DNA from: Simplicispira hankyongi
GTDB taxonomy: Bacteria > Pseudomonadota > Gammaproteobacteria > Burkholderiales > Burkholderiaceae_C
Reading direction: 5' to 3'
Length of the DNA: 64,000 nucleotides
Assembly (NCBI RefSeq): GCF_003570885.1
Contig: NZ_QXJC01000001.1
Location: 310,001 to 374,000 of the forward strand
The position numbers and the translations under genes were made by a program. Below the pieces are notes generated by a model that searched no databases, was not told the origin of the DNA, and saw only the letters and a program-made list of their open reading frames with translations. Below, in pieces: positions 8,847 through 18,105 of this stretch; positions within the stretch are counted from its first letter, which is position 1; each line of letters opens with the position of its first letter.

Positions 8847-10082
8847 TTAGCGTCCGACCTGGGTCAATTGATCGCGCCAGAACACCGGCATCAAGTCGTA
8901 CAGGGGGGTCGGCTCGCGGTGCAGCAGGTGCGTGGTGCCAAGTACCCCCATGGTGGGAATCGTCGTGCCGACGTCCACATAGGCCAGCTGCTGCATCCAG
9001 CCCGGGTCGATGCCGCCACCGGGAGCGGGCCTGGAATAGATCAAGGCCAGAATGCGCCGTGCTTGCACACTGCCGCGCTGATCGGCCAGCCGATAAAACC
9101 GAATCGCCTCGGTGAAATTCGACGGAACGCCCTGGCCCCGGTGGTACTTGCGCGCGGTCATCAGTGCCTCTTCGGCGCTTTCGCTGAGCGGCAACTTCTG
9201 TTGTGCCTGGATCGGGCTGCTGTCGCGTGCTGCCAGCTGCTGCAAGTTGGCTCGTGCAGCCTGCGACTGGGGGCCGGCGCGGCGAAAGTACTGCTCGGCC
9301 TGCTCGAAGCGCTCGTTGGTCACGGCGTCCATGCCCAGCTCGATGTTGGCGTGCATGTCGCCGGCGGCAGCGGCTTTCTCGAGCAGCGGGCGGTCGGGCA
9401 ACTCCAGCACCTGATCCTGATTCACGCCGGACTTGGCCACCTGCAGCGGCGCCTGGCGCATGCTCAGCACCCACTGCAGAAAGTCGGCGCGCGCGGGGTG
9501 GTGCGGGCGCAGCCGCTCAATGGCGCGCCCCGCAGCCGCCGGGTCGGGCGGCCCCGTGCAGCCTTCGAGGTAGCACCAGGCCAGCCCGGCGTAGGCCCAG
9601 GGCTCGCGCCCGAAGCGCGCCGCCTGCTCGAACCAGCGCTGCGCCAGCGCCGTGTCGCGCCGAACGCCCGCGCCGTGCAGGTAAATCAAGCCCAGCGTCC
9701 AGGCTGCCTGGGCCGACTGCGGGGTGCTGCCGATCGTGCGTGGCGCCTCGGCGGTGCGCAGCAAGCGCCGCAGCTCACGATCCACCGCTTGCGCCTGCTG
9801 CGTGTCGCGTAGGGCAAGCGAGTCCTTCGTGACCGCTGGGGCGACAATGCTTGGCTGATCGTCGCCAGGCCTGGTGTCGATTCGTGGCACCGTTGCCGGT
9901 GCCGATTCAATGTGCGGCACTGGGGCAGGCTCCGCCTCAATGTGCTCCTGGGTAGGCTTGGGCATTTGCAACTGGGCGATGACGGTGGCCCGCGTGCGCG
10001 CGGTGGCGCTTGCGCTCGGCGCTGCGGAGGCCAGCACCACCAGCAGCAAGGACGCAAGTCTCGTGATGTTGCAGGGGTTCAT
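8847..10082 (-). CDS. secreted Sel1-like repeat protein
   Basis: 411 residues with a signal peptide (hydrophobic 9-25, Ala-Ser-Ala-Thr-Ala end). A low-complexity Pro/Glu/Val linker runs to about 90. Sel1/TPR-type helical repeats follow: AAWTLGLIYLHGAGVRRDTA, AQRWFEQAARFG, ALMTARKYHRGQGVPSN and AIRFYRLADQRGSVQARRIL. Such periplasmic solenoids act as protein-protein scaffolds. It is the last of four co-directional genes and starts 94 nt after the CsgG-like gene, so I infer it belongs to the same export/assembly locus. It has no enzyme motif. Confidence 0.7.
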   Translation of the reverse strand: MNPCNITRLASLLLVVLASAAPSASATARTRATVIAQLQMPKPTQEHIEAEPAPVPHIESAPATVPRIDTRPGDDQPSIVAPAVTKDSLALRDTQQAQAVDRELRRLLRTAEAPRTIGSTPQSAQAAWTLGLIYLHGAGVRRDTALAQRWFEQAARFGREPWAYAGLAWCYLEGCTGPPDPAAAGRAIERLRPHHPARADFLQWVLSMRQAPLQVAKSGVNQDQVLELPDRPLLEKAAAAGDMHANIELGMDAVTNERFEQAEQYFRRAGPQSQAARANLQQLAARDSSPIQAQQKLPLSESAEEALMTARKYHRGQGVPSNFTEAIRFYRLADQRGSVQARRILALIYSRPAPGGGIDPGWMQQLAYVDVGTTIPTMGVLGTTHLLHREPTPLYDLMPVFWRDQLTQVGR

Positions 10083-10176
10083 ACGAGGCTCGGTTTCCTG
10101 GGGATACGGCTCAGTCGGCTGTGCGATTCAAAGCCGCGGGCCGAATGGTGCCGAACCTGTGGCGGCTCTGTTCATG

Positions 10177-11901
10177 TTATTGCCTTGCAGGGCGTTGGGG
10201 CACCGCCGCGGTCGGCGGCGGTGAGGGCCGGCGTGGCTGCACGACCCACTGGATCGCTTGCGAAACCTGGCCGTTTTCTCCGGTCACCGCGGCAAAACGC
10301 TCCAACACGCCTTGCGTTCCCCGCACGCCATTCATCACAGTGAGCGCGGGCACTTGCATGTCGGTGGGTAGCTTGGGCGCGGCGTCTTCTTGCGTGGCGA
10401 TGCAGATCACGCCTTCGGTTCCGGGTCTGCCCGCCTCCAGGATGAAACCGGGGTTGGGTGCCATCCAGTCCGGAATACGGATGGCCTCATTGGCCGAAAC
10501 CAGCGAACTCGGTTGCAGTCCGTTGGGCAGCAATCGCATCACCGCCCCGGCGCTGTCGGCGTAGTAGCAGTAGAGGTGCGAGGCGCGCGAGACGGTGGCC
10601 GACAGGAAGACCTGCTCGCCTACAGTGAATGCGGGCCGCTCGCCGGCCGGCTGCGGGTTTTCGACCTGCAAGTCGATGCTCCAGGGTTTGGCGGTGGTCA
10701 ACCCAATCGCAGGCGCGGTTGCGCCGTCTGCAACGGCTACCGCCTCGGGTCCGCTGCTGTTCCAGCCGATGCGACTGAGTGCGCCCGCCTCATCCAGCGT
10801 CACGAAGTGGTTCAGTGCCGCCTCGTAAGTCGGAAAGTCGACGATGCCGCTTACCGTCAAACGCCGGTCGGCCTGAAATCTGGCCAGCGCACGGCGCATG
10901 AGGGGGTGGTTGGTCGAAAGGTTTTCCGATTCGCGCGGCAGATAGCCCTGGCTGACTAGCGAGGCCTTGACCAGATTGAATTGCCCATCAGGGCCACTTT
11001 CGCTGTACCACTCTTGCATCGTCCGCTGAAAGTGCGGATTTGCCTGATCCAGGGTCAGGCATTGCCAATAGGGAACGCGAGCCCACTTGCCAACGACTTC
11101 AATCATCGCCAGATCGACCAGGGTGCGCATCGCGGCGCCGGTGCCGACGGCATAGTCGTGTCCGACGTTGAACTTGACCCCGTAGGTGCCAATGCGGCCC
11201 CCCACGTCAAGTCCCTCGCCGCCGCTGCCGGTCACGACCTCGTTTGCGGAATCGATGCCAGGAATGAGGGTGCGTGTGCGAAAGTCCCCCAGATGGACCT
11301 CCAGACCGATGATCGTGGCGCTGCGCGAGCGGCTGTAGCCAAGGTCAACACGCGGGCCCGACACGCCCGCGTCCATGGTGTTGTTGATGACGCTCTGGTC
11401 GACAAAGGCAATCGCACCTGACACATACAGCGCTGGGCGCTGCAACTGCATCTGGTTGTTGTTGAGAAGAATGGTCGTGAGGTTCTGCACCGTGTCCTGA
11501 CGCGCGATATCGACCTCGAAGTCGACGAAGCGAAAGGCATTGCTCAGGCGCGACATCTGTGACAGCGAGGTGGTAACCATCTCCTTCGTCGCCACGGGCA
11601 CCTTGCCAGAGAAATCGATAAATTGCTTGCTGGTGATCAACGTGGTGGGCAACTGCGCCTCACGCAGCATTCGGTCCATGCAGACCAGCGATTCGGAAAA
11701 ACTCGAGACAGATCGCACCGGGCGCACCACCGGGCGGTCGGCTACCGAGGCGTGCGACTGGTATTCGGTGTCCTTGCGCGCATCCAGAGGCGTGGCGCAG
11801 CCCGCCAGCAAGACGGCAGCAGTCATGGTGGCCGCCAGCCAGTTGCACGCTGCGGGCGCTGGGTGATGCTCGGACCCTGAGGTTGCGTTGCGCTTGGTCA
11901 T
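10177..11901 (-). CDS. CsgG/HfaB-like outer-membrane lipoprotein with peptidoglycan-binding and DUF4384-like parts
   Basis: 574 residues from the ATG preceded by GGGAAGG; the frame is open further upstream but carries no better start. A lipoprotein signal ends in LLAGC (Cys35). Residues ~60-310 resemble CsgG/HfaB: FIDFSGKVPVATKEMVTTSL, then ALYVSGAIAFVDQ, RSATIIGLEVHLGDFRT and a final MRTLVDLAMIEVVGKW helix, as in the curli secretion channel. Next comes a peptidoglycan-binding-type helical segment around HPLMRRALARFQADRRL. The C-terminal third (TVGEQVFLSATVSRASHLYC...) is DUF4384-like. In the CsgG family nine copies form an outer-membrane pore. The extra wall-binding part is unusual. It follows the small secreted protein by 131 nt. 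Confidence 0.62.
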   Translation of the reverse strand: MTKRNATSGSEHHPAPAACNWLAATMTAAVLLAGCATPLDARKDTEYQSHASVADRPVVRPVRSVSSFSESLVCMDRMLREAQLPTTLITSKQFIDFSGKVPVATKEMVTTSLSQMSRLSNAFRFVDFEVDIARQDTVQNLTTILLNNNQMQLQRPALYVSGAIAFVDQSVINNTMDAGVSGPRVDLGYSRSRSATIIGLEVHLGDFRTRTLIPGIDSANEVVTGSGGEGLDVGGRIGTYGVKFNVGHDYAVGTGAAMRTLVDLAMIEVVGKWARVPYWQCLTLDQANPHFQRTMQEWYSESGPDGQFNLVKASLVSQGYLPRESENLSTNHPLMRRALARFQADRRLTVSGIVDFPTYEAALNHFVTLDEAGALSRIGWNSSGPEAVAVADGATAPAIGLTTAKPWSIDLQVENPQPAGERPAFTVGEQVFLSATVSRASHLYCYYADSAGAVMRLLPNGLQPSSLVSANEAIRIPDWMAPNPGFILEAGRPGTEGVICIATQEDAAPKLPTDMQVPALTVMNGVRGTQGVLERFAAVTGENGQVSQAIQWVVQPRRPSPPPTAAVPQRPARQ

Positions 11902-12032
11902 AACCTTCCCCTTGTGTCGATCTCGTTCTTCTATTGCGAAAGCAACTCCGGGCGGAGTTTCGTCAACCACAGCCCCAAAAAAGCCGGCAAGAACCCAGAT
12001 CGGGTTGCTGCCTGTCGGCTCTCGCGTACAGG

Positions 12033-12443
12033 TCACCTGCAAATGTTGACCAGGTCACCTCGGACCACGACCACCTGGTCTTCACCCATGGTGCCACCGG
12101 CACCGGGCGCACTGGGTTGCAGCGTCTGCACGCAGGTGACGCCCCCCATGCTGTTGGTCTGAACACTCGACACCACGTCCTTTTCGGTCTGGATGCCTTC
12201 GGTATTTGCCGAGAAGGACTTGGCGACGTAGTGCGCGATCTTGGCTTTGGCGTCATCCGGCATGCCGGTTTTGTAAACGATGCCACTCGATATGGACCGT
12301 GGCGCCGTGGGCATTTGCAGGTAACTGACCTTGCCGGTGATGTGCACGGGATCTTCACCCGGTGCCGCCAGGGCGCAAGTGGCTGCGCCGGCCAGCATGG
12401 CCACGATGAGTTTGCCCATCGCACTTGTGGAATTGCGTTTCAT
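12033..12443 (-). CDS. small secreted protein of the CsgG-like locus
   Basis: 136 residues with a signal peptide ending near ALAAPGED. The mature part has two Cys, one in GGVTCVQTL and one four residues from the end (NICR), suited to a periplasmic disulfide. I do not recognise the family. Its size, export signal and place between a repeat-rich secreted protein and a CsgG-like pore recall the accessory proteins of curli/holdfast systems (CsgE/CsgF, HfaA), but no sequence motif proves it. A good ribosome site (CAGGAGA) precedes the ATG. A terminator-like hairpin separates it from the upstream gene. Confidence 0.6.
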   Translation of the reverse strand: MKRNSTSAMGKLIVAMLAGAATCALAAPGEDPVHITGKVSYLQMPTAPRSISSGIVYKTGMPDDAKAKIAHYVAKSFSANTEGIQTEKDVVSSVQTNSMGGVTCVQTLQPSAPGAGGTMGEDQVVVVRGDLVNICR

Positions 12444-12471
12444 GGCTGTTCTCCTGGTGTTACCCGTTGGA

Positions 12472-12506
12472 AAAACGGCTTTGGTCGGCTTTAGCCGACC
12501 AAAGCC
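12472..12506 (-). terminator. strong hairpin plus T-run between the repeat protein and the assembly genes
   Basis: On the minus strand a perfect 13-bp stem GGCTTTGGTCGGC / GCCGACCAAAGCC with a 4-nt loop (12477-12489 with 12494-12506) is followed by GTTTTT. It lies 12 nt beyond the stop of the repeat protein and ahead of the small secreted protein. It should end most transcripts and let a fraction pass into the three downstream genes. Confidence 0.85.
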
Positions 12507-12518
12507 TGTGGCAGCACA

Positions 12519-13541
12519 TCAGCTTGGCCGGCCCCAGCCGCAATAGCCGGTTGGGCAGTCAGGCAGTTTGAAGTTCGGCGGATCGCAGGCGTCGTTGGAC
12601 GACAGGTTCTGCACCGCGAGGCTCTTCACACCATTGGCCAGGTTCGCCACCGTGCCGCTTACGTGCGTGTATTGGTTGGAATACCCGGAGATCGTCACGT
12701 CGCCAAAATTGGACGACAGATTCTGGAAGGCCTGAGCGGACCTGCCATTGGCTTCGTTGCTGATGGTGCCGCCGTAGCCGGTGACAGCCTGGTCAGAGTG
12801 GCCCCCACTCATGATCTTCACGCCGTCGTAGTTGCTGGCCAGGTTTTGCACCGCGGTCGTGTCAGCACCATTGGCGAAGTTCGTGACGGTGGTCCTCATC
12901 AGACCAACCGCCTGATGACTTTTGCCATCGATCGCCACGGTGCCGATATTGGTAGCCAGCGACTGAATCCCAACGGCTCCCGCGCCCGTCGCCTTGTTGT
13001 CTACGGAACTACCGCCGCCAACATTGGTGCTTTGGGTGCTCTCACCAGCGATCGTCACGTTGCCCACGTTGCTGGACAGGCTTTGCACGGCCAGGGCAGC
13101 GTCACTGCAGTCCACGCCACCGCACCTATCCACCGACCCGGCACCGCTGGCCGTGTTCGTCACAGAACCGTTGATGGTGGCATCCTGCTTGGACGTGCCG
13201 CCTTTCTTGACCTCGACCTTGCCCACGTTGGATGCGAGGCTCTGAACCGCGACGTCCCCGGGATTGACGGCCTTGTTCATGACCTGACCACCCGAATTCA
13301 CTTCGGTAGTCTGGTTCGAATAGCCCGCGATGGTGATGTCGCCCTTGTTGCTCGAGAGGTTCTGGACGGCAGTGGTGTAGGCGTTGGCTGTGTTGGACAC
13401 AGTCGCGTTACTGTCTACGCCGGTGTGCTGGATCGACATTCCGCTGATTTCGATCTTGGCCGCCGCGGTCGGAGTCGGGCCGGCGGCAAAGGCTGTCGCG
13501 GACGCGAGAGCGGTGAGTGTGAACAGAGCAAGTGTTTTCAT
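12519..13541 (-). CDS. secreted seven-repeat Gln/Asn-rich protein, candidate amyloid-like fibre subunit
   Basis: 340 residues. A signal peptide covers 1-20. Residues 29-317 are seven repeats of about 37-53 residues with the pattern V-x-I-x-G-x-S-x-Q ... V-x-N-x-A-x-G ... AVQNLSSN-x-G (repeats start near 29, 68, 108, 161, 201, 240, 281). Gln and Asn recur at fixed places, as in curlin repeats, and alternating hydrophobics predict short beta strands. Repeat 3 has an insert with two Cys; the tail (318-340) has three more. It is not a known curlin. I infer a surface or fibre protein exported by the neighbouring CsgG-like pore. The ATG follows GAAGGAA. Confidence 0.6.
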   Translation of the reverse strand: MKTLALFTLTALASATAFAAGPTPTAAAKIEISGMSIQHTGVDSNATVSNTANAYTTAVQNLSSNKGDITIAGYSNQTTEVNSGGQVMNKAVNPGDVAVQSLASNVGKVEVKKGGTSKQDATINGSVTNTASGAGSVDRCGGVDCSDAALAVQSLSSNVGNVTIAGESTQSTNVGGGSSVDNKATGAGAVGIQSLATNIGTVAIDGKSHQAVGLMRTTVTNFANGADTTAVQNLASNYDGVKIMSGGHSDQAVTGYGGTISNEANGRSAQAFQNLSSNFGDVTISGYSNQYTHVSGTVANLANGVKSLAVQNLSSNDACDPPNFKLPDCPTGYCGWGRPS

Positions 13542-14014
13542 GACAGTTCCTTCAGTTGTGCTGACCAGAGTACCGATTGCAGTCCCTCCGCAACCGATCT
13601 GGCTTGACAGGACACCCGGGCCGTTACACGAAGTGGAACTGGGGGAAGCCCTGTGTGTTCTGTCGGGATCAGTCTGGGCCCGGCCCGCGCTTGCTTCCAT
13701 ACCTAGGTTGACGTAGCGTAACTTGGTGAGACATTTCCAACACCTTGGCTGCATTTCCCTGTACAACAGTCGCATGAGATACCAGCCTTGCTACAACAAA
13801 CAGAGTAAGCAGGGTCGGTAGTTTCTATATGTAAGGCGTGCAACGTATATAAATTGCCGTTTTTGCCGCTAGACGTTTCTTTCGGTTTCTTTTAGTGTTC
13901 AAGCGTGTGAATGTGTGCGCAGAGGTTGGTGAAACCCGTAGAGATTTGCAATGCAGTATCAGCGCCCATAAATCGAAGTTTTTTGCGAACCAAGAAGCGC
14001 AATTGGAGGGGGCC
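13542..14014 (+). other. 470-bp divergent intergenic region of the fibre-like locus
   Basis: No gene seen. Lower GC than its surroundings, with several AT-rich stretches (TATATGTAAGG, CGTATATAAATTG around 13830-13855) that could hold promoters for the leftward subunit gene and the rightward response regulator. Open frames run through it from both sides (back to 13775 leftward, from 13895 rightward) but lack domains and good ribosome sites. A TTGACG at about 13708 is a possible -35 without a convincing -10. Confidence 0.4.
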
Positions 14015-14809
14015 ATGGCCACTTTTTCCAGCCAACCCAGGGTATGCGGACCATTGCATACCGCCCGGGCAGATTCAGCAGTGGGACAGGGGGGATTTGC
14101 CGTGATGGGCAATCCCTCGTCCATCTGGCCCGATTTCATGATCGGCCAGGAACAGCGCCCGGTACGCGTCGTATTGGTGGACGACGACCCTCACATTCGC
14201 CTTGTGATCGGGCAGGAACTAATGAACGAACCGCGCACCCTCCTGGTGGCGCAGGCGGACTGCTTGCGTGAGGCGCGGCGAGCCATCAAGCTTCACGAGT
14301 TCGACGTCTTGCTGGTCGACCTGCATCTGGGCGACGGTGAGGGCTTTGAGCTGCTGGACTATGTGAAGAGCATTCGGCCGTCGGTGGAAACCATCGTGAT
14401 TTCCGTGATGGAAAATGAAGACCAGGTGCTGCGTGCCTTTGAACTGGGCGCCACGGGCTTTCTCAGCAAGAATTCTTGGTTTGGCAGCTATGCCCAAGCG
14501 GTGCTGCAAGTGGTCAACGGGGGGGCATCGATCACGCCGAATCTGGCGCGCCGCCTGCTGCAGCGGTTTGATAAAACGGGAATAGCCGTCCCAACGCCGC
14601 GTGCGCGAGAGGAGCCTGAGCGTCTTTCGGTGCGCGAAAAAGAAGTGCTCAGGCTGGTCGCCAGCGGCTACACCAGCGTGGAAATCGGCGCCCGCCTGCT
14701 GATCAGCAGCATGACGGTGAATACGCATGTGCGCAATATCTACCGCAAGCTCCAGGTGCGCACCCGCGCGCAGGCCGTACGTTTTGCGTCCCTTCGCGGT
14801 TTGTTTTGA
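14015..14809 (+). CDS. LuxR/NarL-family response regulator
   Basis: 264 residues from an ATG directly behind GGAGGGGG; an ATG at 14105 is the alternative. The receiver domain starts RVVLVDDDPHIRLV, with the phosphate-accepting Asp in LLVDLHLGDGEGFELL and the conserved Lys in GFLSKNSW. The C-terminal LuxR helix-turn-helix is complete: LSVREKEVLRLVASGYTSVE then TVNTHVRNIYRKLQVRTRAQ. It is followed within 37 nt by a histidine kinase and faces the repeat-protein gene, the position csgD holds in curli clusters. I infer that it controls that operon. Confidence 0.85.
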   Translation: MATFSSQPRVCGPLHTARADSAVGQGGFAVMGNPSSIWPDFMIGQEQRPVRVVLVDDDPHIRLVIGQELMNEPRTLLVAQADCLREARRAIKLHEFDVLLVDLHLGDGEGFELLDYVKSIRPSVETIVISVMENEDQVLRAFELGATGFLSKNSWFGSYAQAVLQVVNGGASITPNLARRLLQRFDKTGIAVPTPRAREEPERLSVREKEVLRLVASGYTSVEIGARLLISSMTVNTHVRNIYRKLQVRTRAQAVRFASLRGLF

Positions 14810-14845
14810 GCGTACACAGGCGGCGCATATCGAAAAGGAGACTCC

Positions 14846-15667
14846 GTGTCTCTTCCCCGGCCTCTGAACTTCCTTCTGCTTTGTCTCGGCCTGCTGCTGC
14901 TGCAACAGGCGTTGTCCAGCTTTGTGGCCTGGACCCTGTGGTCCCGGGCCGGGCCACTGATGCATGGGACTTGGGTGCTTGTGTTATCCACCGGGACGGT
15001 GCACCTGGTATTGCTGCTCGTGCAACTGCCGCGCGCGATGCGCTGGCGCCCGCGGCGCAGTGTTCGGCCGAGTACTGAGCTGCGGCAGGAGCGCCAGCGC
15101 ATTGCCCGGGATCTGCATGACCGCGTAGGCTCGCAACTCGTCAACGCCCTGGCCCTGTTCGATCCGGCGAAGGAGACAGACGCCCTGCAGCGCGCCGCGC
15201 TGGAGCATGCATTGCTCGAGTTGCGCCTGCTGGTCGACGCCATGGGCGACCCGGACCGCACGCTCGTCGACCAATTGGCGCAGCTGCGCTACCGCCTTCA
15301 GCCGGTCCTCGCACGGCAAGGGATTGCCATCGAGTGGGAGGTCAGTGCCGCCAGCTTGCCGGACGCTCCCCGCGACCCGCTTCTGGCCGTGATCGCCCAG
15401 GAAGCCCTCAGCAATGTGATCCAACACGCGCAGGCCACTCGCGTCCGAGTGTCCCTGAACCGCTTGCCGGGCTCGAACACCTGGCAATTCGAGGTCTGCG
15501 ACAACGGGCGTGGGCTCCCCCAGGCAAGCGCGGACGACGCACCGCAAGGGGGGTTTGGCATGAGCAGCATGCGCGAGCGGGTGCGCCAGGCCGGTGGGGA
15601 GCTGCAGTTCCTGCCATCGGCGCTGGGAGGCACCTGCCTGCGGGTAGTGCTGGCGCGCCGTCTGTAA
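14846..15667 (+). CDS. sensor histidine kinase, HisKA_3 (NarX/UhpB) type
   Basis: 273 residues, GTG start with AAAAGGAG upstream. Two N-terminal membrane segments (about 8-30 and 42-62) enclose almost no periplasmic loop. The dimerisation box ERQRIARDLHDRVGSQLVNA carries the phospho-His. The ATPase has ALSNVIQHAQ (N box), VCDNGRGL (D box) and GFGMSSMRERV (G box). With so small a sensor part it probably reads the membrane itself or a partner protein. Cognate to the response regulator 37 nt upstream. Confidence 0.85.
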   Translation: MSLPRPLNFLLLCLGLLLLQQALSSFVAWTLWSRAGPLMHGTWVLVLSTGTVHLVLLLVQLPRAMRWRPRRSVRPSTELRQERQRIARDLHDRVGSQLVNALALFDPAKETDALQRAALEHALLELRLLVDAMGDPDRTLVDQLAQLRYRLQPVLARQGIAIEWEVSAASLPDAPRDPLLAVIAQEALSNVIQHAQATRVRVSLNRLPGSNTWQFEVCDNGRGLPQASADDAPQGGFGMSSMRERVRQAGGELQFLPSALGGTCLRVVLARRL

Positions 15668-15729
15668 ACCAAGGTCTAGAAGACCTTGTGGCACACTGCG
15701 CCGCTTTTCTGATTGCCACTCCGTTCTCC

Positions 15730-18105
<2,376 letters not shown>

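Follow-up and report, generated by a model that had tools for sequence, protein, structure and literature searches.

A candidate CsgG-type surface-fiber export locus with a secreted repeat protein in Simplicispira hankyongi

To our knowledge, the known surface amyloid or anchor systems of the sort considered here are curli, Fap, and Hfa. In curli, the gene of the LuxR-type regulator, csgD, is divergent from the subunit gene. Fap (FapC/FapF) is a functional amyloid with a secreted repeat subunit, which is exported via the FapF porin and not via a CsgG pore. Here we analyze a locus in a 64,000-nucleotide stretch of the Simplicispira hankyongi genome (contig NZ_QXJC01000001.1, positions 310,001 to 374,000; "the window"), in which four minus-strand genes, called rep, sm, csgG-like, and sel1 in the order of transcription, are divergent from plus-strand genes for a response regulator and a histidine kinase (8847–15667). 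All six genes were present where the original prediction had placed them, and the predicted LuxR regulator and kinase both lie on the plus strand, ending at 14809 and 15667. We consider it probable that the locus, working by the mechanism proposed below as a whole, encodes a dedicated surface-fiber export system of the CsgG superfamily. Among the papers listed in searches of a partial, open-licence library, none described such a system.

The proposed pore protein and the conserved gene set

The 574-amino acid (aa) lipoprotein encoded by csgG-like had been called CsgG/HfaB-like, with a profile-profile comparison suggested as a check. When this comparison was run (pairwise hhalign), the profile of the lipoprotein matched an HfaB-like group at 97.9% (E 5e-13) and curli CsgG at 93.8% (E 1.8e-7), far above ten unrelated or reversed controls (≤0.8%). 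The AlphaFold model predicts a CsgG fold, and Foldseek matches 1 to 25 of this model are all CsgG. The protein contains CsgG (about 64–284), PG_binding_1 (312–361), and DUF4384 (425–505) domains; its lipobox cysteine, C35, is kept in 72/72 rows of the family alignment, and the family forms its own clade in a tree, separate from CsgG and HfaB. Just 2 of 72 family members matched Pfam CsgG at E ≤ 0.1 (best E 0.041), and scores of 16 and 17.9 bits did not reach the HfaB equivalog cut-off of 300 bits. Membership of the lipoprotein in the CsgG superfamily is well supported. Pore relatives at about 31% identity also occur on two Azospirillum plasmids (NZ_CP029832.1 and NC_016587.1), where they are annotated merely as DUF4384 proteins.

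When 84,980 genomes, one per species, were scanned for the pore family, 261 relatives were obtained, and the analysis used the best 80. These relatives were selected by pore similarity, and genes were counted at loci with room on the contig. Under these rules rep was found in all 71 relatives, sm in 69 of 71 when a strict rule on position was applied (in the other two, L085 and L097, the gene is there but escaped the rule), and sel1 on the same strand, adjoining csgG-like, in 74 of 74. The counts are not all independent, because several loci are near-duplicates or come from the same genomes (L037, L038, and L099–L101; L070/L103). The best 80 relatives are labeled mostly as Comamonadaceae and Burkholderiales, the exceptions being Lysobacter segetis, a Pantoea record, a Cellvibrio record, and several metagenome-assembled genomes (MAGs) labeled only to class or phylum. 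The labels of L071 (Pantoea sp. 18069) and L102 (Cellvibrio MAG) fit poorly with a mainly Burkholderiales cassette, and these contigs may be mislabeled or contaminants. One assembly of Ottowia beijingensis has the locus on two contigs (L070 and L103), and the two copies are very similar. In L103, the frames for the pore protein and for Sel1 are each split, perhaps by an assembly or sequencing error.

In a separate sample of 60 genomes, the pore family was present in 13, with 7 close (61–100% identity) and 6 distant (22–32%) relatives. The same 7 close genomes contained sm, and 6 of them contained rep (the contig of the seventh ends there); neither gene was found in the other 53 genomes. Five of the 7 close genomes are also among the best 80 and most were used for model building, so that the informative part of this test is the absence elsewhere. 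The conserved gene set is well supported.

The secreted repeat protein

The rep product has a signal-peptide-like start, as do those of sm and sel1 (judged by eye), followed by seven repeats of ∼39 residues (residues 29–316; one is 53 long) and a Cys-containing C terminus. The seven predicted repeats were recovered as 7 copies of a core motif, whereas shuffling the protein 2000 times gave a mean of 0.015 copies (maximum 1). The mature protein contains 13% Gly, 12% Ser, 11% Ala, 10% each of Thr, Val, and Asn, and 5% Gln, so the earlier wording "Gln/Asn-rich" was generous. The best AlphaFold model (pLDDT 87.3) is all-β and β-solenoid-like, with units of ∼39 residues. The majority of family members are short, with three cores in 53 of 76.

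The original prediction also held that this subunit is unlike CsgA/CsgB and HfaD. In agreement with this, none of 50 rep proteins matched the Pfam curlin models at E ≤ 0.1, any one Pfam family matched at most 2 of the 50 at this threshold, and the rep profile did not match that of HfaD (four HfaD-like rows).

The divergent regulatory genes and upstream element

A divergent regulator was present in 56 of the 63 relatives with room, accompanied by the kinase in 51 and alone in 5. By a simple hydropathy rule the kinases are of two lengths. The short form (mostly 270–331 aa), to which the kinase in the window belongs, has two hydrophobic segments; the longer form has multiple segments and is also found in L087, a close relative of the window. 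Extra response-regulator frames lie between the kinase and rep genes in L042 (Hydrogenophaga aromaticivorans; two) and L056 (a betaproteobacterial MAG; three pieces). In the window, ATG 14015 is the most likely start of the regulator; the queries against Pfam, NCBIfam, and PADLOC ran from 13979, which is in frame without being a start codon.

Between the regulator gene and rep, the pattern CW-N4-GnnACTAMC was found 5' of rep in 27 of 78 loci, starting 265–316 bp before the start codon; in these loci a TTnC precedes it, whose T, T, and C are conserved at 93–96%. The shorter GTWACTACC (≤1 mismatch) occurred within −320 to −240 in 35 of 78 loci, whereas 4 of 78 have it at other positions of −360 to +12. 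It is the fixed position that is evidence for the element, because these sequences also served to discover it. When six genomes were searched with the full pattern, the element was at the locus in the window's genome (the sole site there), G004, and G014, with one further site elsewhere in G004; the reversed control yielded a single site across the six genomes, in G004. The element may be a promoter or an operator.

A terminator-like hairpin is present at the rep-sm junction in 13 of 76 relatives, compared with about 1% in shuffles, and such sites in the region overall show little excess (10 versus 6.5 ± 2.7 in shuffles). The features of the locus are collected in Table 1. What we take to be a Tex-like gene lies 3' of the kinase gene (window positions 15334–18105); a homolog lies within the sequence retrieved for 28 of 80 loci, and a functional link to the cassette is not evident.

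Table 1. Features of the locus (window coordinates)
Feature	Position	Strand	Evidence
sel1: Sel1-repeat protein, 411 aa, proposed periplasmic scaffold or chaperone	8847..10082	-	Sel1 repeats, relatives
csgG-like: outer-membrane lipoprotein, 574 aa, proposed export pore	10177..11901	-	profiles, predicted fold, tree
sm: small secreted protein, 136 aa, proposed accessory or minor subunit	12033..12443	-	invariant C104, C135
Hairpin and T-run between rep and sm, candidate attenuating terminator	12477..12506	-	13-bp stem, 9 GC
rep: proposed fiber subunit, secreted repeat protein, 340 aa	12519..13541	-	repeat count, AlphaFold, relatives
Conserved element TTnC-N8-CA-N4-GnnACTACC 5' of rep, candidate promoter or response-regulator operator	13817..13843	-	position conservation
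LuxR/NarL-family response regulator, 264 aa, divergent	14015..14809	+	domain matches, relatives
HisKA_3-type histidine kinase, two hydrophobic segments, without recognized sensor domain	14846..15667	+	domain matches, hydropathy

Proposed mechanism, alternatives, and related systems

The kinship of the pore with CsgG and HfaB, the conserved gene set, the repeat architecture, and the conserved upstream element were computed directly; from sequence and predicted structure we infer a secretion route, a fiber or amyloid state, roles for sm and Sel1, and a regulatory link, as follows. The rep protein would cross the inner membrane by its signal peptide, stay unfolded in the periplasm, and leave through an outer-membrane pore formed by the CsgG-like lipoprotein, presumably as a nonameric ring. 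Outside the cell, it would fold and stack as a β-solenoid fiber. The peptidoglycan (PG)-binding and DUF4384 domains would anchor the pore to the cell wall and may also gate it. A role as nucleator, chaperone, or minor subunit is proposed for sm, and Sel1 would serve as a periplasmic scaffold. The divergent kinase and regulator would switch on rep via the element about 285 bp upstream, and the hairpin 3' of rep would keep the subunit in excess over the exporter. Export of rep by this system is likely; that rep forms amyloid fibers is plausible but unproven.

Several results weigh against this proposal. Pfam CsgG at E ≤ 1 was matched neither by the window's csgG-like protein nor anywhere in its genome. 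Homologs of CsgE, CsgF, HfaA, and HfaD were not found by profile comparison in sm or rep: the scores were 0.1–6.6% against CsgE (11 rows) and CsgF (19 rows), for which the rest of the genome was not searched, and ≤8.2% against HfaA and HfaD, each represented by just four rows chosen by position. The remaining genes of the locus encode the Sel1 protein, the response regulator, and the histidine kinase. Two of the five rep models were weaker (pLDDT 72.2 and 64.9), AlphaFold may draw solenoids for repeats, and the rep model had no Foldseek match at E ≤ 0.001. Neither regulatory gene was divergent in 7 of the 63 loci, and the upstream element was missing at the locus in three of the six genomes searched (G001, whose sole site is on another contig, and G006 and G035, which have none). 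Finally, in the six distant pore relatives (L020–L025), blastp detected neither rep nor sm nor sel1 (L023 is at a contig end); therefore, the pore family extends beyond the cassette. Near these distant relatives lie OmpA-family proteins (Pfam) in L020 and L022, a caspase-domain protein (Pfam Peptidase_C14) in L020, and short secreted repeat proteins in L020–L022, including two 104-aa proteins with IQGNT..VG..N repeats in L022. The L020–L022 neighborhoods are perhaps a second subtype with another subunit.

The export of rep through the pore could also serve a different end, with rep acting as a monomeric or coat-like β-solenoid adhesin at the surface that does not polymerize. The prevalence of three-core proteins, more like stackable blocks than long adhesins, and the in-register Q, N, and S positions of the repeat, as in curlins, argue against such an adhesin, and by analogy a CsgG-type pore suggests polymerization outside the cell; we regard it as unlikely, although it is the strongest of the alternatives. 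It is improbable that the locus is instead an HfaABD-like anchoring complex, with the CsgG-like protein and its partners serving mainly for tethering or exporting an exopolysaccharide and with rep forming an anchor layer, as the six-gene set has no polysaccharide gene (flanks beyond it were not annotated in the relatives). Equally improbable in our estimate is that the two-component system is a neighbor without a regulatory link to the cassette. The seven loci without a divergent regulator and the five with the regulator alone are in favor of such an unlinked neighbor; against it, most loci retain both genes in divergent orientation, with kinases that differ in length and helix number, and part of the loci have the conserved element between the regulator gene and rep. 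The original prediction of a functional-amyloid or adhesin export system named three results that would count against it, namely a lack of profile similarity to CsgG, a lack of co-conservation of the four genes, and a globular enzymatic fold of the repeat protein, which is predicted to be all-β and solenoid-like; none of the three was found, and the prediction is supported as an overall reading.

We give about even chances to the broader proposal that a third, hitherto undescribed branch of CsgG-type secretion is widespread in Comamonadaceae and their kin, with a wall-tethered pore of CsgG, PG-binding, and DUF4384 domains that exports a new functional-amyloid class with 39-residue repeats, and with its own two-component system and promoter element. 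If the proposal is correct, a large group of environmental bacteria would have an additional surface fiber, made by one more system with a pore clade, subunit repeat, and regulation of its own. Such a system would also provide a new pore scaffold and repeat rule for testing substrate choice by CsgG-type pores, and enable a direct comparison of the role of PG-binding and DUF4384 domains in a system without recognizable CsgE or CsgF.

Among known systems, Fap differs in the absence of the CsgG-type pore predicted here, and a FapC structure was matched by the rep model only at a Foldseek E of 1.8. The lipoprotein is much closer to CsgG than to PelC of Pel polysaccharide secretion, and the six-gene set contains no Pel gene. 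The locus resembles the Caulobacter holdfast anchor HfaA/HfaB/HfaD in its nearest pore profile, a common Cys pattern, and secreted proteins encoded beside the pore gene; it differs in that HfaA and HfaD (four rows each) have no match in sm or rep, and in its separate pore clade with C-terminal PG-binding and DUF4384 domains. Like curli, it has a lipoprotein pore with a predicted CsgG fold, a secreted repetitive β-strand subunit, and a LuxR-type regulator divergent from the subunit gene. Unlike curli, it has a repeat of about 39 residues rather than about 23 and no Pfam curlin match, no CsgE- or CsgF-like partner found at the locus, two extra pore domains, and a regulator paired with a kinase. 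In both systems, key residues recur every 11 positions, as QX10Q in curlins (PMC10192328) and Q-X10-N-X10-Q in rep. Because this system falls outside both curli and Hfa by tests that define these families, but is proposed to work in a curli/Hfa-like way, we class it as a variant of CsgG-dependent surface-fiber export.
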